38,084 bases of DNA from a virus: the IMG/VR virus record IMGVR_UViG_3300021378_002808, positions 1 to 38,084 of that record, one strand, 5' to 3'. A program made the translations under genes and the position numbers. Below, one piece after another: positions 9,768 through 37,966 of the stretch; position 1 is the stretch's first letter; every line of letters begins with the position of its first letter. The notes beneath the pieces were generated by a model. The model did not search any database and was not told the origin of the DNA. It saw nothing but the letters and a program-made list of their open reading frames with translations.

Positions 9768-10691
9768 ATGTTTTTCAGCCGCAAAGATTCGTTTCTGTTC
9801 CCATATGTAAAAGAAGATATATACTCAAATTTTGCAGATCGTCAACAGATCCCTTGGTCAATAGCACAATATAATATACCCCGTTTATGGGGTAAATATA
9901 CTGGTCAAAATGTAGTAGTTGCGGTTATTGATAGCGGATGCGAACTAGACCATCCCGATTTAAGAGGTAATTATATAGAAGGATACAATACTATAGACAA
10001 AAATAAAGACCCTATTGACGAAAATGGTCATGGTACTCATGTGGCTGGCACAGTAGCAGCTGTCAATAATAGTCAGGGAGTTGTAGGGGTCGCACCTGAT
10101 GCAAAGATAATGCCTATTAAAGTATTTGATCGTAGTGGATCAGGATCGACCTCTAATGTAGCTAGTGCTGTAGAATGGGCCGGTAGAAATGGAGCAGATA
10201 TTATCTGTATGTCTTTAGGTTCTAAACATGGTAGTAGGCATTTAGAGAAAGCAATTATGGGAGCCTTGAATAGAGGTGCTGTATGTTTTTGTGCAGCAGG
10301 AAACTCTGGTGAAAAAACAGACATCCTTTATCCTGCCAAGTTTGAATTAACAGTTAGTACAGGAGCGATAGACATAAATCGAAATAGAACACTATTTAGT
10401 TGTAGCGGGGAAGAGTTAGACTTTCTAGCGCCCGGCGCAGATATATTAAGTACCATGATGAATGGTCGCTATGCAGTTATGAGTGGTACTAGTATGGCAA
10501 ACCCATACGTAGTTGGATGTGCTGCGTTGCTTTGTGAGTGGGCTAAAAAACACAGAATTAAATTAACAACAGCAAACGACTATATTGAATATCTTAAAAA
10601 GTATACTACGCCTTTAAAAAATGCAAAGTATAAAAACAATAAATCATATGAAGGTCATGGTATTTTAGATCCAAGAAAATTTAATTTTTAG
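9768..10691 (+). CDS. subtilisin-like serine protease, intracellular (ISP)-like
   Basis: The 307-residue S8 protease has an intact triad: Asp55 in VIDSGC, His88 in GHGTHVAG and Ser242 in SGTSMANP, with oxyanion Asn179 in AAGNS. There is no signal peptide and no long propeptide. Instead residues 10-13 read LFPY, placed like the short inhibitory LIPY/F extension of Bacillus intracellular subtilisins, and the DSGC, DHPDL and NGHGTHVAG blocks also resemble that family. It is therefore likely made as a cytoplasmic zymogen that is activated by N-terminal trimming. AAAGGAG at 9755-9761 is a strong ribosome-binding site. It converges with the next gene, overlapping by 11 bases. Confidence 0.88.
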   Translation: MFFSRKDSFLFPYVKEDIYSNFADRQQIPWSIAQYNIPRLWGKYTGQNVVVAVIDSGCELDHPDLRGNYIEGYNTIDKNKDPIDENGHGTHVAGTVAAVNNSQGVVGVAPDAKIMPIKVFDRSGSGSTSNVASAVEWAGRNGADIICMSLGSKHGSRHLEKAIMGALNRGAVCFCAAGNSGEKTDILYPAKFELTVSTGAIDINRNRTLFSCSGEELDFLAPGADILSTMMNGRYAVMSGTSMANPYVVGCAALLCEWAKKHRIKLTTANDYIEYLKKYTTPLKNAKYKNNKSYEGHGILDPRKFNF

Positions 10692-11063: not shown

Positions 11064-12014
11064 TTATGCTTGAAATTCGTTCTTGAAAAGTTTATAAAAA
11101 CATTTCTCATCTTCACCTATATCATAGTATGCAGGATCTTCTTTTATATCATGCCACCATTGATAAAAATAAAATTTGTTATATAAATCAGGGTTCTTTA
11201 AAGCAATGCAAGACAAAAGCTCTTCTTCTAAAGTAACAAGATCATTATCCAAACAAATCTGTAACCCTTCATCAAAGTCTCTATGCACAGAACTTATAGC
11301 TTTAGGATCTCCCCCAAATAAACCTCCAACTATATAGTCTATATTTCTGTGTACTAAAGGGACAATCAGCTCTTTAATTCTAGGTCTTATTGGCATCTCT
11401 TCCTTCACTATGGCTAAAAAGTTTTCATTATAATTAGATAAAAACTTACCCATATTAGGAGTAAAAATACTAGCTTTATTCTCTGGATAATAAAGTTCTG
11501 GTTTTGTTTCTTGCTTACTAAATTTTTCTCTACCTCCAAATTTTTCAGGAAAAATACCATGATGAAATAATCCAGCATCTATCCAAAAAAAACTATCAGA
11601 ATTATAATGATTATTATTAACTGCCTGATTTAACCAATAGAGCTTAGACAAACAAAGAGTGTGATTTCTATCGTTATATGTATAAGGAATATCTGATTTT
11701 AGCCTGTCTTTAAAAAACCATCCAGAATTTCTTTTTATATCTAATATCCTAGAGCCATATTCAAAGTCGTTCAAATCTTGTACAATAATTTTATAGTCGT
11801 CACCCCTATGCTTTTGCATAAACTTACTCAACTTACCAAATACTTTTTCATGGGTATATATTATTATTGGCAAATCTAATTTTAGTATATTCAAAAAAGG
11901 AGGAGAGTAAAAATCGAAACACCATCCTCTACCTCCTATTATTTCTTTATGGCTATGGTGATATATTGCTGTAACTAAAGTAGCTTTATTATCTGTTTTT
12001 TTTGCAGTATCCAT
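11064..12014 (-). CDS. HtrL/YibB (WlaTC)-type glycosyltransferase
   Basis: The 316-residue protein begins with ATLVTAIYHH and has FFWIDAGLFHHG at residues 142-153 and IVGGLFGGDPKAI near 228-240. These are the three conserved blocks of the HtrL/YibB family, found in LPS and capsule loci and regarded as putative glycosyltransferases. Length is normal for the family. It overlaps the upstream GT25 gene by 26 bases, so the ribosome-binding site is inside that gene and weak. The N-terminal half of the protein at 14621 is a relative, with the same WIDAG and GGFFGG blocks. Confidence 0.75.
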   Translation of the reverse strand: MDTAKKTDNKATLVTAIYHHSHKEIIGGRGWCFDFYSPPFLNILKLDLPIIIYTHEKVFGKLSKFMQKHRGDDYKIIVQDLNDFEYGSRILDIKRNSGWFFKDRLKSDIPYTYNDRNHTLCLSKLYWLNQAVNNNHYNSDSFFWIDAGLFHHGIFPEKFGGREKFSKQETKPELYYPENKASIFTPNMGKFLSNYNENFLAIVKEEMPIRPRIKELIVPLVHRNIDYIVGGLFGGDPKAISSVHRDFDEGLQICLDNDLVTLEEELLSCIALKNPDLYNKFYFYQWWHDIKEDPAYYDIGEDEKCFYKLFKNEFQA

Positions 12015-12705
12015 AATCCATCAGTCTTTGAGGAAGATTTTTATTAGCATACAACTTCCAATTATAAGTCATAAGGTAATGATTATCTATAACCTGTCCA
12101 CGATTAATCGTTGACGGATCAGCTATTTGAGTAACAATTGGCAAATTACCACAAAAACAATTGAAATTTGGATAAATATAATCACTAAAAAATGTGTCTA
12201 TGGCTTGCATCATTCCGTCATTATTCCATTCTTTAAACACTAAAGGCCATTTTAAAACTTCTGGCAGAAGAGATTTTTTATATATAACAGCACTTAGCCC
12301 ATATATTTTGGTGTGTTTCTCTTCTTTAGGAGGTACATCTCTCAAGCTAATCAAACAGTCATTCCTATCCATCTTTAATGGTCTATGTAAACTAGGCGCT
12401 AGATGAAACATATCCCATTCAACTTTATCTAAAGCCCTTAGACAATCCTCTAAATGTTGTTTTGCGTGAGGCAGAAAAAATATATCGTCTTCACAAACCA
12501 TTAAGTAGTCAAGATTTTTTTCAATACCCAGTAAAGCTACTGCCATGTGACTTTTTGCGCAGCCTACATGACTACCAGTATTAATTCCGGGAAGTCTATG
12601 GTACTCCCATTCCATATATTCAAACTCTTTAACTATATGATTCCATCTATCTGGTCTATTGTCTAGATTTATAATAAATTTAGGAACACTATTGATATCA
12701 ATCAT
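11989..12705 (-). CDS. glycosyltransferase family 25
   Basis: The 238-residue GT25 has the N-terminal FIINLDNRPDRW (residues 10-21), HVGCAKSHMAVA near 46-57 and the acidic motif MVCEDDIFFL near 68-77. It probably transfers a hexose to a glycan or protein in the cytoplasm. It is a second member of the family present at 1438, but the two differ widely outside the motifs. The gene starts four bases after the GT60-like gene ends and runs into the HtrL-type gene, so all three are probably translated from one message. Confidence 0.82.
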   Translation of the reverse strand: MIDINSVPKFIINLDNRPDRWNHIVKEFEYMEWEYHRLPGINTGSHVGCAKSHMAVALLGIEKNLDYLMVCEDDIFFLPHAKQHLEDCLRALDKVEWDMFHLAPSLHRPLKMDRNDCLISLRDVPPKEEKHTKIYGLSAVIYKKSLLPEVLKWPLVFKEWNNDGMMQAIDTFFSDYIYPNFNCFCGNLPIVTQIADPSTINRGQVIDNHYLMTYNWKLYANKNLPQRLMDYGYCKKNR

Positions 12706-12708
12706 GAT

Positions 12709-13974
12709 TTAAAGTAACCCCGTAATCGGTGCGGCCCAGCCTTGAGATTTACTATAAGGCCATACTATCCAGCTATTTGGTTTGATTTCTGTTTGAAATT
12801 CTCTCCACACTTTACAGTATCCGTCAGGATCTGTTTTCATTCTGTGAATTTCGTCTTTATTTGCATCTTGTCTATAAATATCATTTCCTTGATCATCCTT
12901 AAAGGCCACACACCAAAAATCATAATCCTGCAAAGGAACTTGTTCAAAAGATATGTCTATACAATGTCTAAAAATAGAAAGTAAAGACCCATAAAATTCT
13001 TCGTCTGATATATTATTATTGACGTTAGGAGCTATTTTGTCTTTAGTTTGAGGACTTATTGCCCTTTTACTAAAACACAACCCCGCATATTTTTCATATT
13101 CAAATAAACTTCTTTCAGTACCGAAACCGTATTCTGCAAAATCTTCGTCTTGTTTTTCTCCATCCATGCCAAATAATTTTCTATTTCTTAAATGAGATCT
13201 GTCATTGGTTATATGCCAGTTATTGTGGTCATCCCAGTGTTTAGTTCTTCCTTTTCTTGTATATTCATGCCAACATATAAGTTCGTTAGGATGAAATAGA
13301 TCATAGCCATGAGTGAAAGCTCTAGCTGCTATGCTAATTTCTTCTCCATGAAAATACATATAAGGATCATGCCTAACTTCAGTAGCAAACGACCCTAAAG
13401 AAAAAGCAAAATGAGCACTGTAAAACCTAGCAGGCAAAGGTTTAGTCGAGTCGTCATGATTGTCAAAATTTGCCGGTAAGAAAAAAACAGCACCTTCAGG
13501 TATAAATCTATCAAAATTCATTTTCCAAGGCAACCGTACTCTAGATTCTGGATCATTGTCTGGATCAAAGCTTGGTATATATGCAGTAATTAAAGGTTTT
13601 TTATGACCGCGATCCTGCAATCCTTTAATCATGTCCTTGAGTTTAGTATCCCAGCCCTTAACAAATCTATGATGACTATCTAATTGTAAAGTATAGTCTT
13701 CATTGTCATATAATGACTGAACAGCATTTCTTGCCCAACAAACTCCTTTCGCTTCTTTATAATTAATGTCTATTATTCTTATTCTTTTATCATCTTTATA
13801 TTTATCTAGATTGTCCCATTCATCTGCTTCACTATGTTGCCAAGCTATTCCTACGTAGATATCGTCAGGATTATCTGCATTAGAGAACATGTCATCTAAA
13901 GTGGGCAATAATTGAGGATCCCTATAAGATGCTATCTGAACAAATATTGTTTTGCTTTTATTGTTTTTATCCAT
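12709..13974 (-). CDS. GT60-like GlcNAc transferase
   Basis: The 421-residue protein opens with IFVQIASYRDPQLLPTL (residues 10-26), then GVCWARNAVQSLY (77-89) and the metal-binding LQLDSHHRFVKGWD (96-109). These match the 'GlcNAc' family that includes Skp1-hydroxyproline N-acetylglucosaminyltransferase, a cytoplasmic enzyme known from Dictyostelium; bacterial members exist. A later block YFHGEEISIAARAFTHGYDLFHP is also typical. The last 80 residues are outside the core and not recognised. A prolyl-hydroxylase-like oxygenase is coded 3.6 kb away at 17603. The sugar and acceptor are unknown. Confidence 0.78.
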   Translation of the reverse strand: MDKNNKSKTIFVQIASYRDPQLLPTLDDMFSNADNPDDIYVGIAWQHSEADEWDNLDKYKDDKRIRIIDINYKEAKGVCWARNAVQSLYDNEDYTLQLDSHHRFVKGWDTKLKDMIKGLQDRGHKKPLITAYIPSFDPDNDPESRVRLPWKMNFDRFIPEGAVFFLPANFDNHDDSTKPLPARFYSAHFAFSLGSFATEVRHDPYMYFHGEEISIAARAFTHGYDLFHPNELICWHEYTRKGRTKHWDDHNNWHITNDRSHLRNRKLFGMDGEKQDEDFAEYGFGTERSLFEYEKYAGLCFSKRAISPQTKDKIAPNVNNNISDEEFYGSLLSIFRHCIDISFEQVPLQDYDFWCVAFKDDQGNDIYRQDANKDEIHRMKTDPDGYCKVWREFQTEIKPNSWIVWPYSKSQGWAAPITGLL

Positions 13975-13991
13975 AAGATCACTTTGTTTTG

Positions 13992-14621
13992 TTATTCTTG
14001 AATGTTTAGTAAGTTCATATCTATAATAGGTCTATCTGAGTAATTAGTCAGAAAATCCTTGTCTTCTTCTGTTGCATCTAATATGTATATTGGCACTTCT
14101 GAGTTTTTTGTATTATTTTTTATATAGATGCCATAATCATATCTCAAACAGTATATATCGAAATCCCTGTATAGGCTTAAAAACTTTTCGTTATTAAGAT
14201 CATACTGTATATGAATCTCATATTGATTGTCAAATTCAGCTTCTTGTTCAGCATTAAATGGCACTCCTACAATAACATCTTCACAATCACTACTAAATTT
14301 ACTTAAAGTAGTTATTGCATCAACATAAGACATATGCTCTATTATATCTCCAAAAATTGCTAACTGGTATTTTTTTAAGTCTATATCTAAAGATATAACG
14401 TTTTGATGGAAAACATTATTATATTTATCTTTCAAATTAAATTTTAATATATATTCCTCAAATACCTCCACAGCATCTATGTTTTTATATCCCAAAGGAT
14501 ATAGTCTATTATAGTAAGTACCAGCACCAGCACCAATGTCAATAATATTAGATTCAGTATTAATATATTTAGTAATATATTCTATTGTTTGTTCTTTAAA
14601 TATACATGTACTGACAGGCAT
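13992..14621 (-). CDS. class I SAM-dependent methyltransferase
   Basis: The 209-residue protein has motif I NIIDIGAGAGTYYNRL (residues 25-40), acidic DAVEVFEEY and a LAIFGDIIEHMSYVDA post-II motif, placing it among Methyltransf_11/23 enzymes. The C-terminal part diverges. It overlaps the upstream transferase gene as TAATG at 14619-14623, so translation is coupled. In this setting it is likely to methylate a sugar or glycan end. Confidence 0.74.
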   Translation of the reverse strand: MPVSTCIFKEQTIEYITKYINTESNIIDIGAGAGTYYNRLYPLGYKNIDAVEVFEEYILKFNLKDKYNNVFHQNVISLDIDLKKYQLAIFGDIIEHMSYVDAITTLSKFSSDCEDVIVGVPFNAEQEAEFDNQYEIHIQYDLNNEKFLSLYRDFDIYCLRYDYGIYIKNNTKNSEVPIYILDATEEDKDFLTNYSDRPIIDMNLLNIQE

Positions 14622-16249
14622 TAGCTTTCTTTCCTTTCGGACTTTTCGTAATGCTCAGTTCTGTTATGAGTAATTGGACTAGCTAGTAGTATAGCTGGAT
14701 TTATCTTATTCTCTTTAGTAAGAGTGTATATATGACTCATCCATGTCTGCTCATAAGGGTATTTCCATTTTGTATCCAAAAACATTTTTTGATTGCCATC
14801 TCTACTGATTATGTGTGGCCAATTACAATAGTAAATTTCACCTTCTGCGTATGGTATCCTATTGATCTGTTTGATGCATTTAAACTCAGTTGTCGGTCTT
14901 TTGTGTATTTTTCCGAAGTATAAAAATCTTTTATCTTGAGGCACATTATGCCAACTCCATTGTTCGCTATTATTGCCATAAAATTCACTGAAACTCATTT
15001 TTAAAAAGTCATACTGCTCTTTGTCCATTATTTTAACAATGGTTCTAAGCAGATTTTTTACCTCTTTCCTGAAACCAAAACCACAATGTCCAGAAAAATC
15101 CAGTAGCATATCATCTTCAAAAAACATCATATACTTGTCATTTGAATCTCCAAAATCTTCAGCAGCAAATTGTCTTGACCCACAGATACCCATATTTCCT
15201 TTTTTAACCTGCTCAAATCCATAAGCGGTACATATCTCATTATATTCTGAATCATACTCTTCTTTAGTACTATTATTGATTAATATTTTTTGAGTTTTAT
15301 TTAAAAAGTCCTTATCTTTTTCTTCAAAAGATTTAATTACAGAGCTCAGTTGTTTAGGTGAATTATAAGTGTTTATATAAAGTCTAACAGTACTTGATAT
15401 ATTGCTATTCATTATTACAGGTTTTTTACGACTCTTAACATCTTCAAAAAATTTAAACACCAAACCATCTCCATTTATATCAAATAATTGTATAGTGTTA
15501 TTTAATTTTGCTATTAATGAAAATATGCTTTCTTCTGTTCCCATATATCCACTATTAAGAGTATCATTAAGCAGTTGATAATATTCACCATTAATGCTGG
15601 ATATATGATCTTTTCTACCTCCAAAAAATCCTCCCCTACATACATGCTCGACTTTTTTTCCACATATTCTATTCATCTCTTTAATATCAAATCCATGAAT
15701 TTCCGAATTCGTTTCATAAGGATATCTTATAAACATAAAAGAATCTACTATGTCTTCTAGTTTGTCAAGAACTTTGTCATGACTAAAATATCCTGGATGA
15801 ACAGTGTTATTGATACCAGCATCAATCCAGTAAAAAAATTCAGAATCAAAAGTATTCATAATACTGGCGTTATGCAAGAAAAACATCTTGCTCATAACTA
15901 CGGGATTGTACATTTGCAGCATTGCTTGCGTGCTACCAGACAGCCAACCAACTTGATTAAGCCACTTTGTATTCGTCCTAATTTTTTCAACTTGTTCACA
16001 GAAAGGGAAAAAGTCAGAACAGAAATCTGTTATCTCATGTTTAACCCATAATAATCTTTCGCTTCTTTTATTAAGTATTCGTTCCTTAATATCTTCAGAT
16101 GAAAATACTACTATATTTGTATCTTGTGTAGATTCTAATAGTCTATCCAAATTACTTAGATATGTAGAAAAATTCCTAGACCATTCTTTGTCAAGATCAG
16201 ACCTTCCTAGATCCCATAGTCCAGTAACTAGGGTTGTTTTAGATGACAT
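14621..16249 (-). CDS. bifunctional transferase: HtrL/YibB domain + GT2-like domain
   Basis: The 542-residue protein joins two glycosyltransferase-like units. Residues 1-270 are HtrL/YibB-type: TTLVTGLWD at 5-13, FYWIDAGINN at 139-148, RGGFFGGRKDHI at 205-216. Residues 287-542 start TVRLYINTYNSPKQLSSVI, a GT2-like opening, and hold MMFFEDDMLLD at 374-384, an acidic metal-binding motif. Fusion suggests two sequential additions to one glycan. It is the first gene of the minus-strand operon that starts from the divergent promoter at 16291-16318. The HtrL unit is related to the protein at 11064. Confidence 0.76.
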   Translation of the reverse strand: MSSKTTLVTGLWDLGRSDLDKEWSRNFSTYLSNLDRLLESTQDTNIVVFSSEDIKERILNKRSERLLWVKHEITDFCSDFFPFCEQVEKIRTNTKWLNQVGWLSGSTQAMLQMYNPVVMSKMFFLHNASIMNTFDSEFFYWIDAGINNTVHPGYFSHDKVLDKLEDIVDSFMFIRYPYETNSEIHGFDIKEMNRICGKKVEHVCRGGFFGGRKDHISSINGEYYQLLNDTLNSGYMGTEESIFSLIAKLNNTIQLFDINGDGLVFKFFEDVKSRKKPVIMNSNISSTVRLYINTYNSPKQLSSVIKSFEEKDKDFLNKTQKILINNSTKEEYDSEYNEICTAYGFEQVKKGNMGICGSRQFAAEDFGDSNDKYMMFFEDDMLLDFSGHCGFGFRKEVKNLLRTIVKIMDKEQYDFLKMSFSEFYGNNSEQWSWHNVPQDKRFLYFGKIHKRPTTEFKCIKQINRIPYAEGEIYYCNWPHIISRDGNQKMFLDTKWKYPYEQTWMSHIYTLTKENKINPAILLASPITHNRTEHYEKSERKES

Positions 16250-16290
16250 ATATGTACTTAGTTAGAGTATTAATCTCCGGCCCTGCATAA

Positions 16291-16318
16291 ATATTAACAA
16301 CAAATCACGAATAGTCAA
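16291..16318 (-). promoter_or_regulatory. sigma70-type promoter for the 14621-11064 operon
   Basis: On the minus strand, TTGACT (16318-16313), a 16-base spacer and TAATAT (16296-16291) form a promoter about 40 bases ahead of the ATG at 16249. The -35 box matches consensus at five of six positions and the -10 at four. It mirrors the plus-strand promoter 35 bases away, which has the same -35 hexamer and the same spacer length. Confidence 0.6.
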
Positions 16319-16352
16319 GTTTAAAAATATGCATGTGTTTTTTTTATTTATC

Positions 16353-16380
16353 TTGACTTTACATGGCAACCAAATACTAT
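16353..16380 (+). promoter_or_regulatory. sigma70-type promoter for the 16428 operon
   Basis: TTGACT (16353-16358), a 16-base spacer and TACTAT (16375-16380) precede the plus-strand operon that begins at 16428. With the opposed TTGACT promoter at 16318 this makes a divergent pair in a 148-base gap, which holds no gene. A long T run lies just upstream of the -35, and could bend DNA or act as an UP-like element. Confidence 0.62.
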
Positions 16381-16427
16381 AAAAATAGTTAATTTGTTTG
16401 TACCGATACTCTCAAAGAAACAGAAAG

Positions 16428-16607
16428 ATGGAAAAAGAAGACAAGAAGTATATCAGGAAGACCAAAATAGACAAGAAGAAAAGAGATAAGTATCAGACTT
16501 CTGATGCTATGGAACATAAAGCAAAGGTTCAAAATAAGAGAGAGAGACAGGGCGAGTTTGAGGAGGATGAGTGGCAAGATTGGGATAGGTTTTATAATCA
16601 CAAATGA
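16428..16607 (+). CDS. small highly charged protein, hypothetical
   Basis: From the ATG at 16428 this is 59 residues, with over half charged: a basic Lys/Arg-rich first half and a more acidic C-terminal end. A TTG ten codons earlier would lengthen it, but there is no better ribosome-binding site there. It is the first gene after the 16353 promoter. The composition suggests binding to nucleic acid or to another phage protein, but no family is recognised. The stop overlaps the next start (ATGA). Confidence 0.6.
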   Translation: MEKEDKKYIRKTKIDKKKRDKYQTSDAMEHKAKVQNKRERQGEFEEDEWQDWDRFYNHK

Positions 16608-16846
16608 AATACATAGAAGAAATAGATACTGGGCAGTGTTTTTCACACAAAGAAGATAATTTTTTAATGTCTTCAGATTTCAAGAAAAATGGCGAGAGAT
16701 TGGGTATCAGTTTAAAAAATGGAGTTAGTCGTTGGTTTGGTCCTTCTGAGACGGTAGAGGTTGTGGTTTTATACACAATAGACCAGGACAGCAATTTAAA
16801 ACACATTAGACCAGAGGATGCTGATGATCCTAATAAGAGTATCTAA
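16604..16846 (+). CDS. hypothetical small protein
   Basis: This 80-residue soluble protein has an alternating hydrophobic pattern (VEVVVLYTI near residues 51-59) suggesting a small beta-barrel or sheet domain. Family not recognised. It is translationally coupled to the preceding gene by ATGA and overlaps the next gene by 23 bases, so it belongs to the operon read from 16353. Confidence 0.6.
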   Translation: MKYIEEIDTGQCFSHKEDNFLMSSDFKKNGERLGISLKNGVSRWFGPSETVEVVVLYTIDQDSNLKHIRPEDADDPNKSI

Positions 16847-17099
16847 CTTTATCAAATCTCTATTTTTTCACGTATGGTCAGGGTTTCCAAAGTGTAGTAA
16901 AGATCAAATTTTAAAAAGATGGAATACATGTTTAGCCTGCAAAGAATTTAATAAAGAATATTCTATATGTAATATATGCGGATGCAATTTGAATAACAGA
17001 AAAGAGTTCTTCAATAAACTTGCTTGGGCTGATCAAGAATGTCCTGCTGGTAAATGGCCGAAAGAAATTAATAATGAAGACAAAAAAACAAGAAAATAA
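16824..17099 (+). CDS. small zinc-ribbon protein, hypothetical
   Basis: The 91-residue protein has a cysteine set CLACxEF ... CNICGCNL ... ECPAGKW between about residues 34 and 76, a zinc-ribbon pattern with a WADQECPAGKW end that I recall from small phage proteins. The N-terminus has a hydrophobic amphipathic stretch (SNFIKSLFFHVW). The ATG at 16824 is chosen because AGAGG at 16813-16817 is well spaced; ATG 16818 is too close. The final part overlaps the next gene's start. Confidence 0.64.
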   Translation: MILIRVSNFIKSLFFHVWSGFPKCSKDQILKRWNTCLACKEFNKEYSICNICGCNLNNRKEFFNKLAWADQECPAGKWPKEINNEDKKTRK

Positions 17100-17613
17100 A
17101 AGAAAAAATTACGTATATAACAGTAAATACAACCTATTTGATAGCGCACAAGAACAAATAAAATGTGCATCAAATGGATGTAATGCAATTATTGTCAATA
17201 TTTGCAACAGTCAGCACGTACATGTCAATGCATTTAATAAAAAAGTATATAGTAAATACCCATTAGTTCTAGCAAATAGAGAGGCTGTTGGGAGAACAAA
17301 TTTAGGTAAGTGTCAGCCTGTACTTGTAGATAAAAATAAAGAATATAATCATAAATTATATGTAGCTAATTTATATACTTGTTCAGGTAAGAAAACACCC
17401 AAAAATAGGACGATCAATTACTATGCTTTAGGACTAAGTTTACAGCAACTAGCTAGTTTTGTCAGATCAAATATAAATAGCACTGAGAATCCTACATCTA
17501 GAATCTTTATAGATAAACAATGTGTTGCTTTTACTGGCTGCAATTGGTCTTTTGTAGATGATCTTTTAGACGATATAATGCCCGATATTGAGGTGTCGGT
17601 ATATGATCAATAA
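17074..17613 (+). CDS. macro-domain-like protein (ADP-ribose-binding type), divergent
   Basis: From the ATG at 17074 (179 residues) the order of blocks follows macro domains. NAIIVNICNSQHVHVNAF begins near residue 37 (the 'N..N....G.G.A' ligand loop), followed by KVYSKYP, LGKCQPV, LYVANLYTCSG, RTINYYALGLSLQQL, and CVAFTGCNWSFVDDLL, which corresponds to the usual 'GCGLGGGNW..V..L'. The Gly-rich loop is changed to His-Val-His-Val-Asn, so catalytic function is doubtful. Macro domains bind ADP-ribose, ADP-ribose-1''-phosphate or related nucleotides. A 5' in-frame ATG (17020) lies inside the previous gene and is less likely. Confidence 0.6.
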   Translation: MKTKKQENKRKNYVYNSKYNLFDSAQEQIKCASNGCNAIIVNICNSQHVHVNAFNKKVYSKYPLVLANREAVGRTNLGKCQPVLVDKNKEYNHKLYVANLYTCSGKKTPKNRTINYYALGLSLQQLASFVRSNINSTENPTSRIFIDKQCVAFTGCNWSFVDDLLDDIMPDIEVSVYDQ

Positions 17614-18493
17614 CAACATTCAATACCTCAAACAGCATCCCTATATTAGTGACGACGTATATATAGAGATGTACGAAGATCCATTTCCTCATATAGTTAT
17701 TAACAACCTATTTAAAGAAAACATATATGAGATGATATCTAGTCGTTTCATGGAGATGATAGGAAGAACACAATCCTACAAAGATCTTCCGGGTGCTGTA
17801 CATGATTATGCTGCTTATATATATGGCCTAAAAAAAGAAGACTGTAATTATGGCTATGATTTTTTTATAGATGATATTTGGAAAAATTTTAATATGGCAA
17901 CATTTGGTGTTCTACTTAATAAATATATAGCGATGAGCGCACACTGGCATGAAGCACCAGCTAAACCCGGATTTATTCATAACGACTACAATATATGTTC
18001 AGTTATTGATGATGGAGCTAAAGATTATACCTTAACTGGCAATTGTTATTATTCTGATGATACTGCTACCATGACTCCACAGGCTCAAAAAATAGCTAGA
18101 AGCGTAGCTATGTTGTATTATTTAAACAATGAATCAGACCATCCAAGCGATGGAGGAACAAGCGTATATGGTAATTATAAATTTCATAGCAAAATAAAAG
18201 ATATTCCTCCAAAAAATAACTCTATATTTGTCTTTGCTGTTCAGCCTAATTCGTATCATGGTTTTACAGGAGCAAACTTCAATAGGTCTGCGATAGTGCA
18301 ATGGTTCCATTCTAGTCCTGCTTATATGGTTAGTAAATACAAAAAATTAATGAAAGAAAAGTACATTCAGTATGGTTCTGGTTTTGAAAGATGGCAACCA
18401 AAAGAAACTATGTGGGATATTAGAAATGATCCTGAATATAAAAAATATTTTCAAAATCAAAACTTGACACTAGAACAATTACTAAATTCATGA
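17603..18493 (+). CDS. 2-oxoglutarate/Fe(II)-dependent oxygenase (prolyl 4-hydroxylase-like)
   Basis: The 296-residue protein has the iron triad His126-x-Asp128 (FIHNDYN) and His219 (NSYHGF), with a 2OG-binding Arg228 (NRSAIVQWF). Strands SVAMLYYLN and GGTSVYG before it, and the PPKNNSIFVF block, resemble prolyl-4-hydroxylase-like enzymes in phages and bacteria. It likely hydroxylates a protein side chain or a sugar/lipid using 2-oxoglutarate and oxygen. GAGGTG at 17590-17595 supports the ATG at 17603; a TTG five codons earlier is less likely. It overlaps the macro-like gene by 11 bases and is ATGA-coupled to the next transferase. Confidence 0.82.
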   Translation: MINNNIQYLKQHPYISDDVYIEMYEDPFPHIVINNLFKENIYEMISSRFMEMIGRTQSYKDLPGAVHDYAAYIYGLKKEDCNYGYDFFIDDIWKNFNMATFGVLLNKYIAMSAHWHEAPAKPGFIHNDYNICSVIDDGAKDYTLTGNCYYSDDTATMTPQAQKIARSVAMLYYLNNESDHPSDGGTSVYGNYKFHSKIKDIPPKNNSIFVFAVQPNSYHGFTGANFNRSAIVQWFHSSPAYMVSKYKKLMKEKYIQYGSGFERWQPKETMWDIRNDPEYKKYFQNQNLTLEQLLNS

Positions 18494-19350
18494 ACAGACA
18501 AATACTATTTCTTGCTGATGAATTTGCTTCAGACTCAACAGGCGGTGCTGAACTGACCACAGAAGCAGTTATCAATGATAGTCCCTCAGATGTTGACGTA
18601 ATTATGGTTCGAACATCAGAACTAAATATAGATATAATTAATAAATTTAAAGATAATAAATGGATTATAGGTAATTTTTTTGGTCTCAATCCAGATCATA
18701 TGATACATTTAATGTCTAAGAAAATAGATTATTCTATTATTGAATATGATTATAAGTATTGTGTTATGCGTATTCCTAAACTGCACAAAAAACTACATGG
18801 AGAATGTTGTGAAGAAAGCGTGAGAGGACAACTTATATCTTTATTTATGTCTCTTTCTCAAAGTCTGTGGTATATGTCTAGTGGGCAAAAAAACTGGTAC
18901 GAGCAACAGTTCCCTGCTCTTAAAAAAGCTAATAGTTATGTACTAGGTTCTCTGCTAGAACAAAAAACTATTGATTATATTAGTACTCTGGACTGTTCAA
19001 ATAAAAATGATACATACATGATACAAGACCATCCTCATATATTGAAAGGTACAAAAGCAGGTATAGAATTAGCTGAAATTAAAAATTTAAAATACGAATT
19101 GTTTGGGTCTATGAAATCAGAACCTCATCATGAGGTTTTACAAAAATTTGCAAAAGCTAAAGGACTAATATTTGTTCCTACAGAATTTGATACCTGTCCA
19201 AGAATCACAATAGAAGCAAAATTATTGGGTTGTGATTTGATACTTGGAGAAAATGTTCAACATAAAGATGAGGATTGGTTTAATAAAGATAATACAGAAA
19301 TGATTAATCATATGAAAAATAGAACTGAGGTTTTCTGGGAGACGATATGA
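18490..19350 (+). CDS. GT-B glycosyltransferase (GT4-like)
   Basis: The 286-residue protein begins ILFLADEFASDSTGGAELTTEA, a GT-B nucleotide-sugar enzyme opening with a GGAE loop, and ends with KGLIFVPTEFDTCPRITIEAKLLGCDLILG (about residues 214-243), which matches the donor-binding E..P....EA block of GT4. The middle is shorter than in most GT4 proteins. It is ATGA-coupled to the oxygenase before it and to the GT29-like gene after it, which suggests work on one product. Confidence 0.7.
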   Translation: MNRQILFLADEFASDSTGGAELTTEAVINDSPSDVDVIMVRTSELNIDIINKFKDNKWIIGNFFGLNPDHMIHLMSKKIDYSIIEYDYKYCVMRIPKLHKKLHGECCEESVRGQLISLFMSLSQSLWYMSSGQKNWYEQQFPALKKANSYVLGSLLEQKTIDYISTLDCSNKNDTYMIQDHPHILKGTKAGIELAEIKNLKYELFGSMKSEPHHEVLQKFAKAKGLIFVPTEFDTCPRITIEAKLLGCDLILGENVQHKDEDWFNKDNTEMINHMKNRTEVFWETI

Positions 19351-20033
19351 ATAAACGTAAAGAATACGAAGATTACCTAAAAGGCAAAAGAGTTTGTTTG
19401 GTAGGACCAGCGCCAACAGTAAAAGATATAGAGGGGAATTTATATAATAGCAAACAAGAACAAATTGATAAAATCGAATCTTATGACATCATTGTTAGGC
19501 TTAATATAGCACTACCAATGCCCGATTCTTTAGCAGAATACGTGGGCAGCAGAACAGAAATAATTTATAATTGCATGAGTCCAGACCCAGAATCTGGGGG
19601 TTACATTAATATAGATTTTCTAAAAGACAAAATCAACTGGATAGTAGCATCGTTACCTGCTAAACCTCCTTTCACACAGGATATTATAGGGTTTTATCAA
19701 AGAAACCAAAATACTATAAACTTTACAACCGTAGAACTGGAATATTTTAATGAGCTAGAACAAAAAATGCAGACTAGACCTAATACTGGAGTTATAGCAA
19801 TATTAGATATGTTAGCCTGCGATATTAAAGAACTTTTCATAACAGGTATAACATTTTTTAGAGGTGGTTATGTTAAAGAATACAGAGGATATAATGAGCA
19901 AGAAGTATTATCTAGAATGGCTGTCCATAAAAACCATAGACAAGAACCTCAGTTGGCATACATGAAAGAAATACTGTCGTCGGACCCTAGAGTAAAAATG
20001 GATAAATATTTACAGGATATTATCAATGAATAA
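19347..20033 (+). CDS. GT29/GT42 sialyltransferase-like protein
   Basis: The 228-residue protein has VCLVGPAPTV at residues 16-25 (sialyl motif L-like), DIIVRLN (47-53), TRPNTGVIAILDML (143-156) and KELFITGITFF (161-171) (motif S), and a His197..Glu200 region in HRQEPQ near the place of motif VS. These are the features of CMP-sialic-acid-type transferases. A CMP-sugar synthetase gene follows 1.7 kb downstream. It overlaps the neighbouring genes by 4 and 8 bases. The preferred sugar could be another CMP-activated acid such as Kdo. Confidence 0.7.
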   Translation: MNKRKEYEDYLKGKRVCLVGPAPTVKDIEGNLYNSKQEQIDKIESYDIIVRLNIALPMPDSLAEYVGSRTEIIYNCMSPDPESGGYINIDFLKDKINWIVASLPAKPPFTQDIIGFYQRNQNTINFTTVELEYFNELEQKMQTRPNTGVIAILDMLACDIKELFITGITFFRGGYVKEYRGYNEQEVLSRMAVHKNHRQEPQLAYMKEILSSDPRVKMDKYLQDIINE

Positions 20034-21024
20034 AATAATATTATTAGGTTACACAAAAGAAGGCTCTCATACAAATTGGTATCCTTGGTATAGATTTAAA
20101 GAGACTTTCAATGAATTAGGATATGACTCACAATGGATAGAAATCCAAAATTTTAAAAGAGAACCTAATCAAAACTATACTTTTATCTGTTGGAACATGC
20201 CTGATGTTCTTGATTTGATAAGCGCAGGAATTCTACATAAAGATGATACTGTTTTACAAAAAGTTACTTCTATGACAAAGAGGGAGTCATCTGCGAGTTG
20301 GGGTGCAGATCCAGATGCTTTTCATAAAACTTGGAACTGGCCTGCTTATCAAATGTGTTTGGATGTTTTGAATATGGGATACAATATCTATGCTTTTGGT
20401 TGCAGAACATGCTATGAAGATTTTCCTAAAAAGAAAGAATTGATAGAACAATTAGGAGATCGTATGATTATGATACCTTGGACAAGCTGTATGTTTTCTT
20501 ATCAAGAACTACAAAAGCAAAAAGCTATTACTGATAATTTTGAATTAGACTGTTGTTTCGTAGGGTCTATTTGGGGTAGAGAAGGAAGAGGAAACTTAGA
20601 ATCAGTCAGAGATTATCTTTCGCCGGTGTTTAATAGTACGGATAAAGGCTATGCTGCGGGTTCTGGTACTGCCACAGGACCAATCTCAAACGCGAAACAT
20701 GTGGAAGTAATTAAAAAATCTAAATTATGTCCTATTATTAATGCTCCTTCGTGGAGATCAGAAAAAGGAGTGCAAGATAGATTCTGGACAGTATTTGCTG
20801 CTGGCAGATTTGGTGTTGTAGACACAGAAGGAGTCTACGATTTTTTTAGTAAAAATGATGTTGTATGCGAAACAGATCCAAATGAATACGTAGAGAAAAG
20901 CTTGTATTACATGAAAAATCCAGAAAAACAAATTCCTTACATAGAAAAAATACAACAGAGGATTAAAACAGAATACAATTGGAACAATACGTTTAAAAAA
21001 ATATTAACCATTATCTCTCTATAA
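20026..21024 (+). CDS. CgeB-like glycosyltransferase (Glyco_trans_1_2 type)
   Basis: The 332-residue protein's C-terminal third has GVQDRFWTVFAAGRFGVVD and NDVVCETDPNEYVEKSLYYM, the pattern of the CgeB/'glycosyl transferases group 1' family (PF13524-type). The N-terminal half is a Rossmann-like domain with CWNMPD and FGCRTCYED. It likely adds a sugar from an NDP donor in the cytoplasm. It overlaps the GT29-like gene by eight bases, and a 14-base gap leads to the FkbM gene. Confidence 0.7.
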   Translation: MNKIILLGYTKEGSHTNWYPWYRFKETFNELGYDSQWIEIQNFKREPNQNYTFICWNMPDVLDLISAGILHKDDTVLQKVTSMTKRESSASWGADPDAFHKTWNWPAYQMCLDVLNMGYNIYAFGCRTCYEDFPKKKELIEQLGDRMIMIPWTSCMFSYQELQKQKAITDNFELDCCFVGSIWGREGRGNLESVRDYLSPVFNSTDKGYAAGSGTATGPISNAKHVEVIKKSKLCPIINAPSWRSEKGVQDRFWTVFAAGRFGVVDTEGVYDFFSKNDVVCETDPNEYVEKSLYYMKNPEKQIPYIEKIQQRIKTEYNWNNTFKKILTIISL

Positions 21025-21038
21025 AAAAGTAATATCTC

Positions 21039-21722
21039 ATGAGACAAATTACAAAAAATACTATGTACGGCGAAATCACATTTCCTGCAAACGATTATAT
21101 TGCATCAAAATGCGACACACATAAATGGTATCACGGAAAAAATTGCCATACAACTGATATGATATCTAAAATCAATTCTATGATAAAATCCGATTCTACT
21201 TTTGTTGATGTTGGAGCATTTGTTGGCACTTTCTCGATTCCTTTACTCGAAGCAGGCCATTGTGGTTTCATGTTTGAGGCATGTAAAGATTTTTACAATA
21301 TGCTTTCGATCAATACAAGAAAATACGATAAAGCCACAAGCTATAACAATGCTGTCGGAAATAAAAATATTTCTATCGGCATGAGTGTTGAAAATGGTAA
21401 TTTTGGAGGAAGTCATATTACCAAAGGTAATGAAATAAAAATGATTACACTAGATTCTTTTTTTACAAATAGTTCTGTGAATCAAATAGACTTTATCAAA
21501 ATAGATGTGGAGTCTTATGAATATTATGTTTTACAGGGGGCTGTGGCAACAATTAGTCGGTTTAAGCCAATTATATTATGGGAAAATCTTAAACCAAATT
21601 GGAATGACACAAGCCTAGATGCTGAACTTGGCAAAAAAGAAAATTGTTTCGAATTTTTGCAAAATTTAGGATATAATAGGCATCAAGATATATCGAATAA
21701 CATCCTTTCTTTTATTGAATAA
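21039..21722 (+). CDS. FkbM-family methyltransferase
   Basis: The 227-residue protein has motif I FVDVGAFVGTFSIPLLE (residues 55-71), FMFEACKDFYNML (77-89) and IDFIKIDVESYEYYVLQGA (153-171), the best conserved FkbM segment, better preserved than in the copy at 4049. It O-methylates a sugar or related group. It ends TAATG into the CMP-sugar synthetase gene, so the two are coupled in translation. Confidence 0.82.
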   Translation: MRQITKNTMYGEITFPANDYIASKCDTHKWYHGKNCHTTDMISKINSMIKSDSTFVDVGAFVGTFSIPLLEAGHCGFMFEACKDFYNMLSINTRKYDKATSYNNAVGNKNISIGMSVENGNFGGSHITKGNEIKMITLDSFFTNSSVNQIDFIKIDVESYEYYVLQGAVATISRFKPIILWENLKPNWNDTSLDAELGKKENCFEFLQNLGYNRHQDISNNILSFIE

Positions 21723-22363
21723 TGCTCATATTTATACCAATTAAATCAAACTCTCAAAGGGTTAAAAATAAAAACTTTCGTCTTTTTGGAGACAAGCCTT
21801 TATGGAGGCATACTGTTGAAAAACTGAATAAGACATACACAGTTTGCATAGACACTGATTCTGATGATATCATTAGAGAATGTAACAATTTAGACAATGT
21901 ATTGATATACAAAAGAAAAGATTCTTTATGCGGAGACAAGATATCTGTTATTAAGTTGCTAAAGTATTTCAAAAACAAATTTAATGTTGTTGATAATATA
22001 TGCCAAGTTCATGTCACATCTCCTTTTCTAGATGTCAAACACATTCAGTTTGCTGAAAACAAGCTACAAGAAGGTTACGATTCTGTTTTTGGCGTGAATG
22101 TCATGCAGCAAAGACTTTGGAGAAAAGAATCATATGGATATTGCCCTGTCAATCATAATCCTATGAAATTAGAACAAACACAAGATTTGCCCAAATACTA
22201 TTGTGAAAATTCTTATCTTTATGCCTTTAAACCAGAAGTGCTTAACAACAATAATAGGATAGGAAATAATCCATATCTCTTAGAAATAGACTTTCCATAC
22301 AATTTAGATATTGATACAGAGGAAGACTGGGAATTATCACTAAATATAAAAAGGAGAATATAA
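21722..22363 (+). CDS. CMP-sugar synthetase (NeuA/KdsB-like cytidylyltransferase)
   Basis: The 213-residue protein begins IFIPIKSNSQRVKNKNFRLF, the P-loop-like CTP-binding signature of acylneuraminate/Kdo cytidylyltransferases. It continues with CIDTDSDDI, HVTSPFLD near 100 and LDIDTEEDW near the end, all canonical. It joins CTP with a sugar acid (sialic acid, Kdo, or similar), giving CMP-sugar. Two GT29/GT42-like proteins in the window (4706, 19347) could use such a donor, and an aldolase-like gene follows two genes downstream. The substrate is not decided by the sequence. Confidence 0.84.
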   Translation: MLIFIPIKSNSQRVKNKNFRLFGDKPLWRHTVEKLNKTYTVCIDTDSDDIIRECNNLDNVLIYKRKDSLCGDKISVIKLLKYFKNKFNVVDNICQVHVTSPFLDVKHIQFAENKLQEGYDSVFGVNVMQQRLWRKESYGYCPVNHNPMKLEQTQDLPKYYCENSYLYAFKPEVLNNNNRIGNNPYLLEIDFPYNLDIDTEEDWELSLNIKRRI

Positions 22364-22924
22364 ATGGCTAGCCATAATATCTTAATAGAATACATTAACA
22401 AAGACAAAAATATCAAATATAAAAATGTCATTGAAATAGGAACTACAAGAGAAATAACCAGTCAATTAGATAGTTCTTCAAAATTTTACTTACTGTCTAA
22501 AGACAAGCAATTTAATTTTATTACTGTAGATATGGATCCAGAAAATACTAAAAATATTAAGTCTAGATATCCAGATATTAATGCTTTATGCTGTAAAGGC
22601 GAAGATTTTCTACAGAAATATCCTGACACTGTAGACTATTTGTATTTAGATGCATTTGATTTTTATCACAATGGTCATAGTAAAGAAAGACAAGAAAGCT
22701 ATAGAAAAAATTTAGGATGTGAAATTGCCACAGACGATAAGTTGTGTCACCAAATGCATCTTGAATGTTGCCAAAACGTTATTGACAAAATGCCGTCAAA
22801 GTCTATTATTGTTATAGATGATGTTTTAGATGACAAAAGAGGCAAGGGTGTCACAGCTATACCTTTTTTGTTGTCTAACGGCTTTTCATTAATTCAATCT
22901 AACTGCACCTTCCAAAAGGACTAA
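22364..22924 (+). CDS. SAM-methyltransferase-like protein (TylF/Methyltransf_24 type)
   Basis: The 186-residue protein has VIEIGTTREIT (motif I with few Gly), FITVDMDPEN (acidic loop), VDYLYLDAFDFYH and SIIVIDDVLDD, the Rossmann layout of Methyltransf_24/TylF-type O-methyltransferases with metal-binding Asp residues. The nucleotide-binding loop lacks the usual Gly-x-Gly, so activity is uncertain. It starts right after the CMP-synthetase stop and lies five bases before the aldolase. Confidence 0.6.
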   Translation: MASHNILIEYINKDKNIKYKNVIEIGTTREITSQLDSSSKFYLLSKDKQFNFITVDMDPENTKNIKSRYPDINALCCKGEDFLQKYPDTVDYLYLDAFDFYHNGHSKERQESYRKNLGCEIATDDKLCHQMHLECCQNVIDKMPSKSIIVIDDVLDDKRGKGVTAIPFLLSNGFSLIQSNCTFQKD

Positions 22925-22928
22925 AATC

Positions 22929-23663
22929 ATGAAATTATCTTGGCAACAAATACCTTCGGCTACTATCTCTGAAATTATGTGCAAAGGTTTTGACGGAGTT
23001 GTACTTGATACAGAGCACGGTTGTTTTAATCCTGAAACTATTAATAATTGTATTCAAGTAATTAAATTAGCAGGAAAAAAGGCTTTTGTTAGATTAACAG
23101 AAGTTTCGCCTACTGATATTAGGTCATGCCTTGATTCTGGTTGTGATGGTCTTATCTTTTCTACCGTAGAAACTGTTGAACAATGCGAAGCAATTAAAAA
23201 TTGTTGCTATTTCCCTCCAAAAGGAAAGAGGGGTCTTGGACTATCAAGAGAAAATATGTGGGGAGAAAAAAGCCAATTAGTAAGTAGTGGGCCAATTATT
23301 GTTCCTCAAATAGAATCTAAGTTAGGTATTGAAAATATAGAAAAAATTAAAAGTTATGGATTTGACTTTCATCTGATTGGTCCATATGATTTATCTTTAA
23401 GTTTAGAAATACCTGGTGATTTTAAACACGAAAAATTTCAACAAGCTATTAAGACTATGAGAGATAGTATTCCTAATGATAAAATGGCCATACATATTCC
23501 TAAGGATCTTGACGCTTGGAATTTGTGGCAGTCCGAAATGGAAGAATGGTTGAACTATTCAGATTATGGAATGCTATGCATAGGCATGGATACTATAGCT
23601 ATCTTCCAGTATAATAAAGTAAATTTATCTAAAGTCAGAAAGGCTTCTAGTCCGAAATCATAA
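22929..23663 (+). CDS. HpcH/HpaI-family aldolase
   Basis: The 244-residue TIM-barrel protein shows VVLDTEHGCF (residues 24-33), KAFVRLTEVSPTDIRSCLD, GKRGLGLSR, IVPQIESKLGIENI and LIGPYDLSLSL. These are the metal- and pyruvate-binding blocks of the class II HpcH/HpaI aldolase family, which joins or splits pyruvate and aldehydes to make 2-keto-3-deoxy acids. Next to a CMP-sugar synthetase it could make or degrade a keto-sugar acid donor precursor. It ends a run that starts at 16428; a sigma70-type promoter follows at 23678. Confidence 0.82.
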   Translation: MKLSWQQIPSATISEIMCKGFDGVVLDTEHGCFNPETINNCIQVIKLAGKKAFVRLTEVSPTDIRSCLDSGCDGLIFSTVETVEQCEAIKNCCYFPPKGKRGLGLSRENMWGEKSQLVSSGPIIVPQIESKLGIENIEKIKSYGFDFHLIGPYDLSLSLEIPGDFKHEKFQQAIKTMRDSIPNDKMAIHIPKDLDAWNLWQSEMEEWLNYSDYGMLCIGMDTIAIFQYNKVNLSKVRKASSPKS

Positions 23664-36353: not shown

Positions 36354-37385
36354 ATGTCAGATATACAAAAAATAGACACAAACAAGCCCATAGATCATGG
36401 CGGAGTTACGGTTAGATATCCATTCGGTGAAGCAGAAGGTCGTGACGCTAAGATATCCTCTCAGAACATCAAGACTCAAGCAAGTAATTTATTAAATAAA
36501 TTTAAGCCATTAAGACGGTTTGACGCAAAGACATTTTCATCTCTCTATTCCATGTTAACAGATAAGACTTTGGGCATATATCAATCTGACTTACCGTACC
36601 CTAGCACATCTAACTTTACATTAAAATCACAATTAGACTTGGGAATAGGTGTTTTTTCTGTATTTGACGAGCATTATATTTTTAATTATAATAATTATAT
36701 ATACGTATGTTGTAATAACAATAATATTAAATATATAGATGCTGATTTTAATATATCTGAAATTGATATTGGTTACAGGTGGGATCAAATCTTTTTTAAA
36801 GACGATGATACTATTTTTACCTTATTAGATAATAAGATTTATCAAATTGATTTAACAAATAACACAAGCTCTGTTTATGGAACATTAGACAGCTCAATAC
36901 CATATCCTGTAGACGATATTAAATATGATAACACCAATAACAAATTTATATGTTCGTCAGGCAATAAAATATTCATCAGTAATAATAGTTTAACTTTGCT
37001 CTCCACATTAAATAATATAGTACAAAGTTTATTTAATAATAAAAATGGCACTTTTATAGCATCCAGACCCTTAGATGGAGATAATGTTCAAGATAATTTT
37101 CAAATAGACTTATCAGATAATTCTATTACAACATTAACAGACAACAAAAACTATTATGAACATGCAGACTTGTTTTGCAAAAACTACACTAAGACTTCAG
37201 AAACAGGTAATGTTGAACTATATAGTGATTCTACTTTACTAGGTGCTATATCTTTGTTTGATGACGTATTATCTGTAAATCAGGCTACGGACACTATTGT
37301 TGTAAGAGAAGCAGAAAAGAGAAATGTCTATTCTTTAAAAAATGCTCTTAATGGTAAACTTTCTAAACTTGTGGAGTTAGATTAA
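36354..37385 (+). CDS. propeller-like structural protein, hypothetical
   Basis: The 343-residue protein opens with a polar 60-residue N-terminus. From about 85 to 340 it has repeated short beta-strand units with a regular alternation of bulky hydrophobic residues and Asn/Asp-rich turns (for example NNYIYVCCNNN, NKIYQIDLTNN, NKIFISNNS, NVELYSDSTL). This resembles a beta-propeller with weak blades, and a tail or fibre component is plausible. No family is recognised. It is followed by a TAATG-coupled Ig-domain protein. Confidence 0.62.
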   Translation: MSDIQKIDTNKPIDHGGVTVRYPFGEAEGRDAKISSQNIKTQASNLLNKFKPLRRFDAKTFSSLYSMLTDKTLGIYQSDLPYPSTSNFTLKSQLDLGIGVFSVFDEHYIFNYNNYIYVCCNNNNIKYIDADFNISEIDIGYRWDQIFFKDDDTIFTLLDNKIYQIDLTNNTSSVYGTLDSSIPYPVDDIKYDNTNNKFICSSGNKIFISNNSLTLLSTLNNIVQSLFNNKNGTFIASRPLDGDNVQDNFQIDLSDNSITTLTDNKNYYEHADLFCKNYTKTSETGNVELYSDSTLLGAISLFDDVLSVNQATDTIVVREAEKRNVYSLKNALNGKLSKLVELD

Positions 37386-37966
37386 TGAGTGTCCTTGTTG
37401 TAGCACAAAGTGGTGTCTCAATCACCCCAACACCAACACCAAATAGATCTGCAACTCCTACGCCAACACCAAGCGTTACATCTACTCCAATAGTAGTTAC
37501 TGTCACCCCAACTGCTACTTCTACAGTAACTCCCACTCCTACTCTTACCAAAACACCAACGCCCACACCAACAACATCTCCTAGATCAATATCTATACTG
37601 ACTCATCCTAGCGGACAGACAATAGATATAGAACAAAATCAGTCCGTAAGTTTTAGTGCTCAAGCTAGTACAAATTCAGACTTGTATTTTTCTTGGCAGT
37701 ATTCTTCAAACAGTGGAGTAAGTTGGGACTATTTAACCATAAGTGGCCTGCCAACAAGTTCTGGTTTTTCATATCTTAATTTAAGCAACCTCACTACCGA
37801 CCAAAATAACAATCAATACCGCTGTCAAATCAGTAATAATGTATTTACTTCAGAAACAAATAGTGCAACATTAACAATATTGTCAGAAATAAATATTACA
37901 ACACAACCCACAGACACCACTATTTCTAGTAGTGGCACAGCCACATTTACAATAGGTGCAGAATAA
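37385..37966 (+). CDS. Pro/Thr-rich linker plus Ig-like domain protein
   Basis: The 193-residue protein has a Thr-Pro repeat region at about residues 14-66, then an Ig-like beta sandwich (about 67-166) with SFSAQAS, YFSWQYSSNSGVSW and YRCQISNN as strand landmarks. A second Ig-like unit starts at about 168 (INITTQPTDTTISSSGTATFTIGAE) but the stop codon comes after its first strands. The next ORF resumes with YQWQVSQDGG, as if the domain continued. The Thr-Pro region is a typical surface linker and a possible O-glycosylation target. Confidence 0.74.
   Translation: MSVLVVAQSGVSITPTPTPNRSATPTPTPSVTSTPIVVTVTPTATSTVTPTPTLTKTPTPTPTTSPRSISILTHPSGQTIDIEQNQSVSFSAQASTNSDLYFSWQYSSNSGVSWDYLTISGLPTSSGFSYLNLSNLTTDQNNNQYRCQISNNVFTSETNSATLTILSEINITTQPTDTTISSSGTATFTIGAE

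Follow-up and report, generated by a model that had tools for sequence, protein, structure and literature searches.

A possible mucin-type glycosylation system in a jumbo phage lineage: a GT60-type transferase, Thr-Pro-rich candidate acceptors and a separate, optional 2OG-Fe(II) oxygenase

Results

A glycan locus with a GT60-type transferase and an oxygenase

We analysed a 38-kb virus record of IMG/VR (IMGVR_UViG_3300021378_002808; 38,084 nucleotides, hereafter the window), which encodes a GT60-type glycosyltransferase (GT) and a 2-oxoglutarate (2OG)-Fe(II) oxygenase. The explanation that we favour, with a confidence just short of even, is a phage mucin-type O-glycosylation of Thr residues in virion linkers together with a separate, optional, sugar-modifying oxygenase, both encoded in one shared glycan locus. 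The GT60 protein would attach an N-acetylhexosamine (HexNAc), most likely alpha-N-acetylglucosamine (alpha-GlcNAc), to Thr itself in the Thr-Pro-rich linkers that virion proteins carry, and a fusion of an HtrL/YibB-like domain with a GT-like region would extend the sugar started by GT60. The oxygenase would be an optional member of a variable sugar cassette. Its probable role in most relatives is to oxidise a sugar carbon, which an NAD-epimerase-like short-chain dehydrogenase/reductase (SDR) would then reduce or epimerise. The features at the centre of this explanation are the following.

12709..13974, minus strand: GT60-type (PF11397) polypeptide GlcNAc-transferase-like protein, 421 amino acids (PF11397, phrog_24687, structural model)
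14621..16249, minus strand: HtrL/YibB-like domain with a C-terminal GT-like region, 542 amino acids (PF09612, 65.7 bits; C-terminal half weakly similar to the phrog_842 glucosyltransferase)
17603..18493, plus strand: 2OG-Fe(II) oxygenase, 296 amino acids (PF13640, PF13661; invariant HxD/H/R; structural model)
37385..37966, plus strand: Thr-Pro-rich (mucin-like) segment followed by an apparently Ig-like region; candidate acceptor (TPTPTP codon matches)

Both open reading frames (ORFs) singled out in the first-pass annotation, the 12709 and 17603 genes, are intact and far above chance, and the divergent arrangement described there was confirmed, the GT60 gene lying on a minus-strand operon and the oxygenase gene on a plus-strand operon.

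The GT60 protein and its conserved partner

The product of the 12709 gene matched PF11397 with 261.7 bits (cut-off 21; E=1.8e-77) and phrog_24687 with 570 bits (E=4.5e-171), and its LQLDSHHRF segment (residues 96-104) contains a DSHHR motif that is invariant across 21 aligned phage homologues. The GT60 assignment proposed at first pass was thus borne out and, as judged from sequence, is beyond doubt. No PDB chain matched the protein by sequence, profile search included. Its structural model (predicted local distance difference test, pLDDT, 84.9) has a GT-A fold near the polypeptide HexNAc-transferases: the closest PDB folds are mucin-type N-acetylgalactosamine (GalNAc) transferases (GalNAc-T2, T4, TgT3 and T1), and several of these top structures contain mucin peptides. 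The neighbours of the model support a polypeptide as the probable acceptor. The GT60 family includes the Skp1 hydroxyproline transferase (PMC8724618) and also members that modify plain Thr without hydroxylation, in T. cruzi and in the Dictyostelium Golgi (PMC3769586, PMC8724618).

In 72 of 83 GT60 loci the GT60 gene is followed, always on the same strand and mostly as the next gene, by the HtrL/YibB-GT fusion; these loci include those of the cultured phages XacN1 and RAS14, in which the partner shows 37-40% identity. The fusion is a conserved partner of GT60, and a tighter one than the oxygenase. The XacN1 GT60, ORF334, is 47% identical to that of the window. At least two glycoproteins were reported from a virion proteomic analysis of XacN1, with phage GTs suggested as their makers; the accessible part of that paper names no GT60, Thr-Pro acceptors or hydroxylase (PMC5852040). 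Among the XacN1 ORFs that we examined, at least 13 contain mucin-like Thr-Pro-dense segments. ORF232-237 form a paralogous array whose members share an N-terminal domain and continue into a mucin-like stalk. ORF325 also has a Thr-Pro-dense segment; its gene adjoins those of the baseplate wedge, and its product matches a family of virion structural proteins. Our search of the open-access literature found no report of a phage GT60 or of phage mucin-type glycosylation.

Thr-Pro repeats accompany GT60

The 37385 segment of the window has three matches to the TPTPTP codon pattern where 0 were expected, and comprises 57 residues with 21 Thr and 13 Pro. The first-pass annotation had put this linker forward as a natural candidate substrate of hydroxyproline glycosylation: the linker is real and, as Thr-Pro repeats go with GT60, it stands as a candidate acceptor, but the hydroxyproline route is not supported. 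When whole records were searched, the pattern was present in 38 of 56 records with GT60, in 3 of 18 records from the same lineage that lack GT60 and in none of 9 other jumbo phages; one of the three GT60-free positives, G090, has its matches in common with G089, which bears GT60, and probably represents part of a GT60-bearing genome. Among records of at least 100 kb, the counts were 18/22, 1/9 and 0/9 respectively (Fisher p=4.8e-4 and 1e-6), and the density of matches was 4.8 per 100 kb in GT60 records, compared to 0.06 in large GT60-free relatives and 0 in other jumbo phages. The fetched loci were matched in G+C content (0.330 vs 0.338). As controls, the reversed pattern was nearly silent and Pro-x-Pro displayed no such split, except for Pro-Gly runs in two genomes. 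Thr-Pro repeats were not associated with the oxygenase (p=0.45). Matches of Thr-Pro proteins to phrog_15511, at least one of which overlaps the repeats, were disregarded.

The oxygenase and its SDR partner in relatives

The product of the 17603 gene gave a modest but clear match to PF13640 (35.4 bits; cut-off 27) and PF13661 (28.8 bits); its start is the ATG at 17603, with the TTG at 17588 as a possible alternative. The 2OG-Fe(II) identity read at first pass from an HxD...H signature was upheld, the facial triad (H126-x-D128 and H219) and the 2OG-binding R228 being invariant in 18 homologues. The AlphaFold2 model (pLDDT 85.5) matched about equally the folds of OGFOD1 (1e-8), PolD (1.5e-8), the Dictyostelium PHD, PhyA (1e-7), and PasI (1.4e-7). 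PolD and PasI are nucleoside-sugar enzymes, and OGFOD1 and PhyA act on proline; since the two kinds of enzyme match the fold about equally, structure does not decide the substrate. The second match in a viral fold library was a 616-amino-acid giant-virus protein named GDP-mannose 4,6-dehydratase, of which the matched part is the oxygenase fold. When the oxygenase profile was run against contigs of bacterial and archaeal genomes, the only one returned was a virus-like contig within a metagenome-assembled genome.

In relatives, the oxygenase goes with a short SDR that resembles NAD epimerases (Pfam Epimerase, E=9e-8): (i) natural SDR-oxygenase fusions occur in two variants, L113:4421-5908 (496 amino acids) and L116:4029-5531 (501 amino acids); (ii) the two genes overlap or adjoin in several other relatives, in both gene orders, and in G044, where the order is reversed, the SDR revealed an oxygenase that PF13640 had missed; and (iii) 15 of 21 records with the oxygenase, but 0 of 21 records without it, have a strong SDR match (Fisher p=1e-6), in a sample partly chosen through the oxygenase.

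Contrary evidence and alternative explanations

Several points weigh against Thr glycosylation with a separate sugar-modifying oxygenase. The TPTPTP pattern was chosen after Thr-Pro repeats had been noticed near GT60 in several loci, and was then tested on whole records; 4 of the 22 large GT60 records have no match. GT60 changes at least eight times on the tree of a shared actin-like gene, and a phylogeny-paired test of GT60 against Thr-Pro repeats, underpowered with only four strongly supported independent pairs, showed nothing; the association is not proven to be independent of ancestry. Most records are fragments, so that absence counts as weak evidence. On the side of the oxygenase, a PDB sequence profile search gave chiefly prolyl hydroxylases, with OGFOD1 as the best match (E=7e-4), and PHD2 is among the PDB neighbours by sequence or fold. 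No such SDR was found in the window or in the five nearest records, which form its own clade; the sugar reading of this phage's oxygenase therefore rests on relatives, and the sugar-redox reading is least secure in this clade. Finally, long (Pro-Gly)n linkers in large proteins (L224:3140-7648 and L225:2852-8380) were seen only in G003 and G047, both oxygenase-bearing, among the 40 genomes scanned; they are an unexplained lead for prolyl hydroxylation, small and post hoc.

These linkers, together with the PDB neighbours found by profile and by fold, speak for an oxygenase that hydroxylates peptidyl-prolines in Pro-rich linkers of the virion, independently of GT60 and in the manner of the Chlorella-virus prolyl 4-hydroxylase. 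However, the SDR fusions and linkage, the presence of PolD and PasI among the closest folds and the lack of Pro-Gly runs in other large oxygenase-bearing records make this unlikely. It is also improbable, in our judgement, that the cluster as a whole serves to synthesise or modify a polysaccharide, at the host surface or lipid-linked, with GT60 acting on a sugar or a lipid and not on protein. The plus operon does encode a CMP-sugar synthetase-like protein, an aldolase of 2-keto acids, an FkbM methyltransferase and several GTs, and UDP-galactopyranose mutase and GDP-mannose dehydratase are found in relatives; yet the nearest known families and folds of GT60 are polypeptide transferases, and both the Thr-Pro association and the glycoproteins reported in XacN1 virions speak against this reading.

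GT60 and the oxygenase are separable

The first-pass annotation had joined the two genes into a two-step pathway, in which the oxygenase hydroxylates Pro in Pro-rich linkers and GT60 adds GlcNAc to the hydroxyproline, after the model of PhyA and Gnt1, which modify Skp1 in this way in Dictyostelium. The place of the Skp1 transferase in GT60 (PMC8724618), the presence of OGFOD1, PHD2 and the Dictyostelium PHD among the oxygenase neighbours, and a spacing of 3.5-17 kb between the two genes in all 15 records that have both are in line with this pathway. Lack of co-occurrence in related genomes had been named beforehand as the finding that would speak against it. We collected 80 loci around GT60 relatives, then oxygenase relatives, and searched whole records. 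With PF13640 as the only query the oxygenase is undercounted, so we repeated the count using a profile made from its relatives. This profile detected the oxygenase in 15 of 50 GT60-bearing records, leaving 35 without it, and found none in several large GT60 records, which include G010 (224 kb), G042 (233 kb), G045 (238 kb), G046 (217 kb), XacN1 (385 kb) and RAS14 (320 kb). The reverse was also seen: two contigs, G055 (85 kb) and G058 (138 kb), encode the oxygenase but no GT60. Nor is the oxygenase replaced by members of two other families, as searches for PhyH and 2OG-Oxy_5 gave a single protein, a PhyH match in G046. These data indicate that the oxygenase is not needed for GT60. Moreover, the distribution of Thr-Pro repeats does not follow that of the oxygenase, both genes are more tightly coupled to other partners, and the closeness of the two genes is explained by a shared sugar-gene island. 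Co-occurrence being largely lacking, the two-step hydroxyproline glycosylation is not supported; a Skp1-like pathway was rejected as the best model, and we consider it very unlikely. The case cautions against inferring a single pathway from gene neighbourhood, as co-occurrence across whole genomes sets GT60 and the oxygenase apart.

Hypermodification of phage DNA by the GTs and the oxygenase (hydroxymethyl-base glycosylation) is the least probable alternative. The 14621 protein weakly matches the hydroxymethylcytosine glucosyltransferase phrog_842 (E=0.001), but none of the scanned proteins was recognised as a DNA-modification enzyme, and PDB searches showed no resemblance of the oxygenase to AlkB or TET.

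Organisation of the locus and neighbouring genes

Two operons diverge from the 16250-16603 gap of the window, one on the minus strand (16249-11064) and one on the plus strand, from 16604; within both, adjacent genes overlap or are separated by small gaps. The minus operon consists, in order, of the HtrL/YibB-GT fusion, a methyltransferase-like gene, GT60 (third), a GT25-like gene and a second HtrL/YibB gene. In the plus operon, three small genes precede the oxygenase (fourth), which is followed by several GT-like genes and by genes for an FkbM methyltransferase, a CMP-sugar synthetase-like protein and an HpaI-like aldolase. A scan of 16200-16900 gave 8 sigma70-like matches against 2.5 expected, and the 16250-16603 gap has such matches on both strands; these are consensus matches only. 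The remaining features of the locus are listed below.

11064..12014, minus strand: second HtrL/YibB-like protein (PF09612, 44.1 bits)
11989..12705, minus strand: GT25-like glycosyltransferase (PF01755, 48.6 bits)
13992..14621, minus strand: methyltransferase-like gene between GT60 and the HtrL/YibB-GT fusion (sub-threshold Methyltransf_23)
16250..16603, no strand: divergent intergenic region (promoter-like sites, both strands)
18490..19350, plus strand: probable GT-B glycosyltransferase, read from the sequence (no Pfam, PHROG or NCBIfam match; 4-nucleotide overlap with the oxygenase)
19347..20033, plus strand: weakly GT29 (sialyltransferase)-like protein (PF00777, E=0.004, below cut-off)
20026..21024, plus strand: glycosyl transferase-like protein, Glyco_trans_1_2 (PF13524, 47.7 bits)
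21039..21722, plus strand: FkbM-type methyltransferase (PF05050, 55.4 bits)
21722..22363, plus strand: CMP-sugar synthetase-like protein, closest to PseF/KdsB (PF02348, 62.3 bits; PseF, 64.8 bits, below the equivalog cut-off)
22929..23663, plus strand: HpaI/GarL-like 2-keto-acid aldolase (PF03328, 65.4 bits; HpaI, 82 bits)

The methyltransferase-like gene varies among relatives. The CMP-sugar synthetase-like and HpaI-like aldolase genes (21722-23663), which lie in one operon, may form a CMP-ulosonic-acid cassette; they are variable among close relatives. The sugar region also contains an IMPDH/GMP-reductase-like gene (24410-25444; 222 bits).

Elsewhere in the window, an S8 subtilase gene (9768-10691; 185 bits) is conserved in 56 of 87 related loci, and a sigma-factor-like protein is encoded at 28232-28822 (phrog_351, E=6.8e-16). 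A Volactin-like actin homologue (426-1427; PF25216, 223 bits) occurs in the phage lineage and has about 296 relatives in viral contigs; the PF25216 (Volactin) family is known from Haloferax. Related phages carry DUF1501, DUF1559 and FGE-sulfatase domains (L110:6078-7379, L128:7127-8461, L084:7886-8770 and L036:11093-12814), the DUF1501 assignment in L128 having been read from the sequence. These families are known for their expansion in Planctomycetota, and their presence gives a hint of the host.

Discussion

The closest known systems are T. cruzi TcOGNT-2 and Dictyostelium DdGnt2 (PMC3769586, PMC8724618), which belong to the same Pfam family as the GT60 of the window (262 bits). Thr-rich, Pro-containing acceptors are likewise encoded in the same phage genomes, and the glycan is probably extended by another GT. 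In contrast, the phage protein is predicted to be cytoplasmic, without a secretory route, and its partner is the HtrL/YibB-GT fusion. The PhyA-Gnt1-PgtA pathway of Skp1 in Dictyostelium and Toxoplasma resembles the phage locus in its GT60 starter, a 2OG oxygenase in the locus and a two-domain second GT. It differs in that the phage oxygenase is dispensable and mostly absent, there is no Skp1, and the second GT is no PgtA homologue by the family searches used.

For the oxygenase, one viral precedent is Chlorella virus PBCV-1, which reportedly has a prolyl 4-hydroxylase acting on proline-rich repeats. Here too a viral 2OG oxygenase has Pro-rich virion linkers available, but the phage oxygenase is linked, in most relatives, to an SDR. 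The pairing of a 2OG oxygenase with an NAD(P)-type reductase recalls KanJ/KanK of kanamycin biosynthesis, a 2OG-Fe dioxygenase and an NADPH reductase that act on one sugar carbon (PMC5533434); this is an analogy only, with no homology claimed, and the SDR partner is absent in the window's clade. As to the putative product, the nearest counterpart is the set of virion glycoproteins reported from XacN1 (PMC5852040), a phage with a homologous GT60 and the same HtrL-GT partner.

The virion glycosylation of tailed phages has rarely been mapped and its enzymes are mostly unidentified. Mucin-type protein glycosylation is known from eukaryotes. The phage GT60 and the mucin-like proteins supply a specific enzyme, an acceptor motif and two cultured phages, XacN1 and RAS14. 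Somewhat more tentatively than for the locus itself, we propose a jumbo phage lineage with its own mucin-type O-glycosylation, in which GT60 would be the initiator and the HtrL/YibB-GT fusion the extender, with many Thr-Pro-stalk virion proteins as putative acceptors and lineage-specific tailoring that includes the oxygenase-SDR pair. If true, this would place mucin-type protein glycosylation in bacterial viruses and would suggest that virion stalks are coated as a protection from proteases or host defences.

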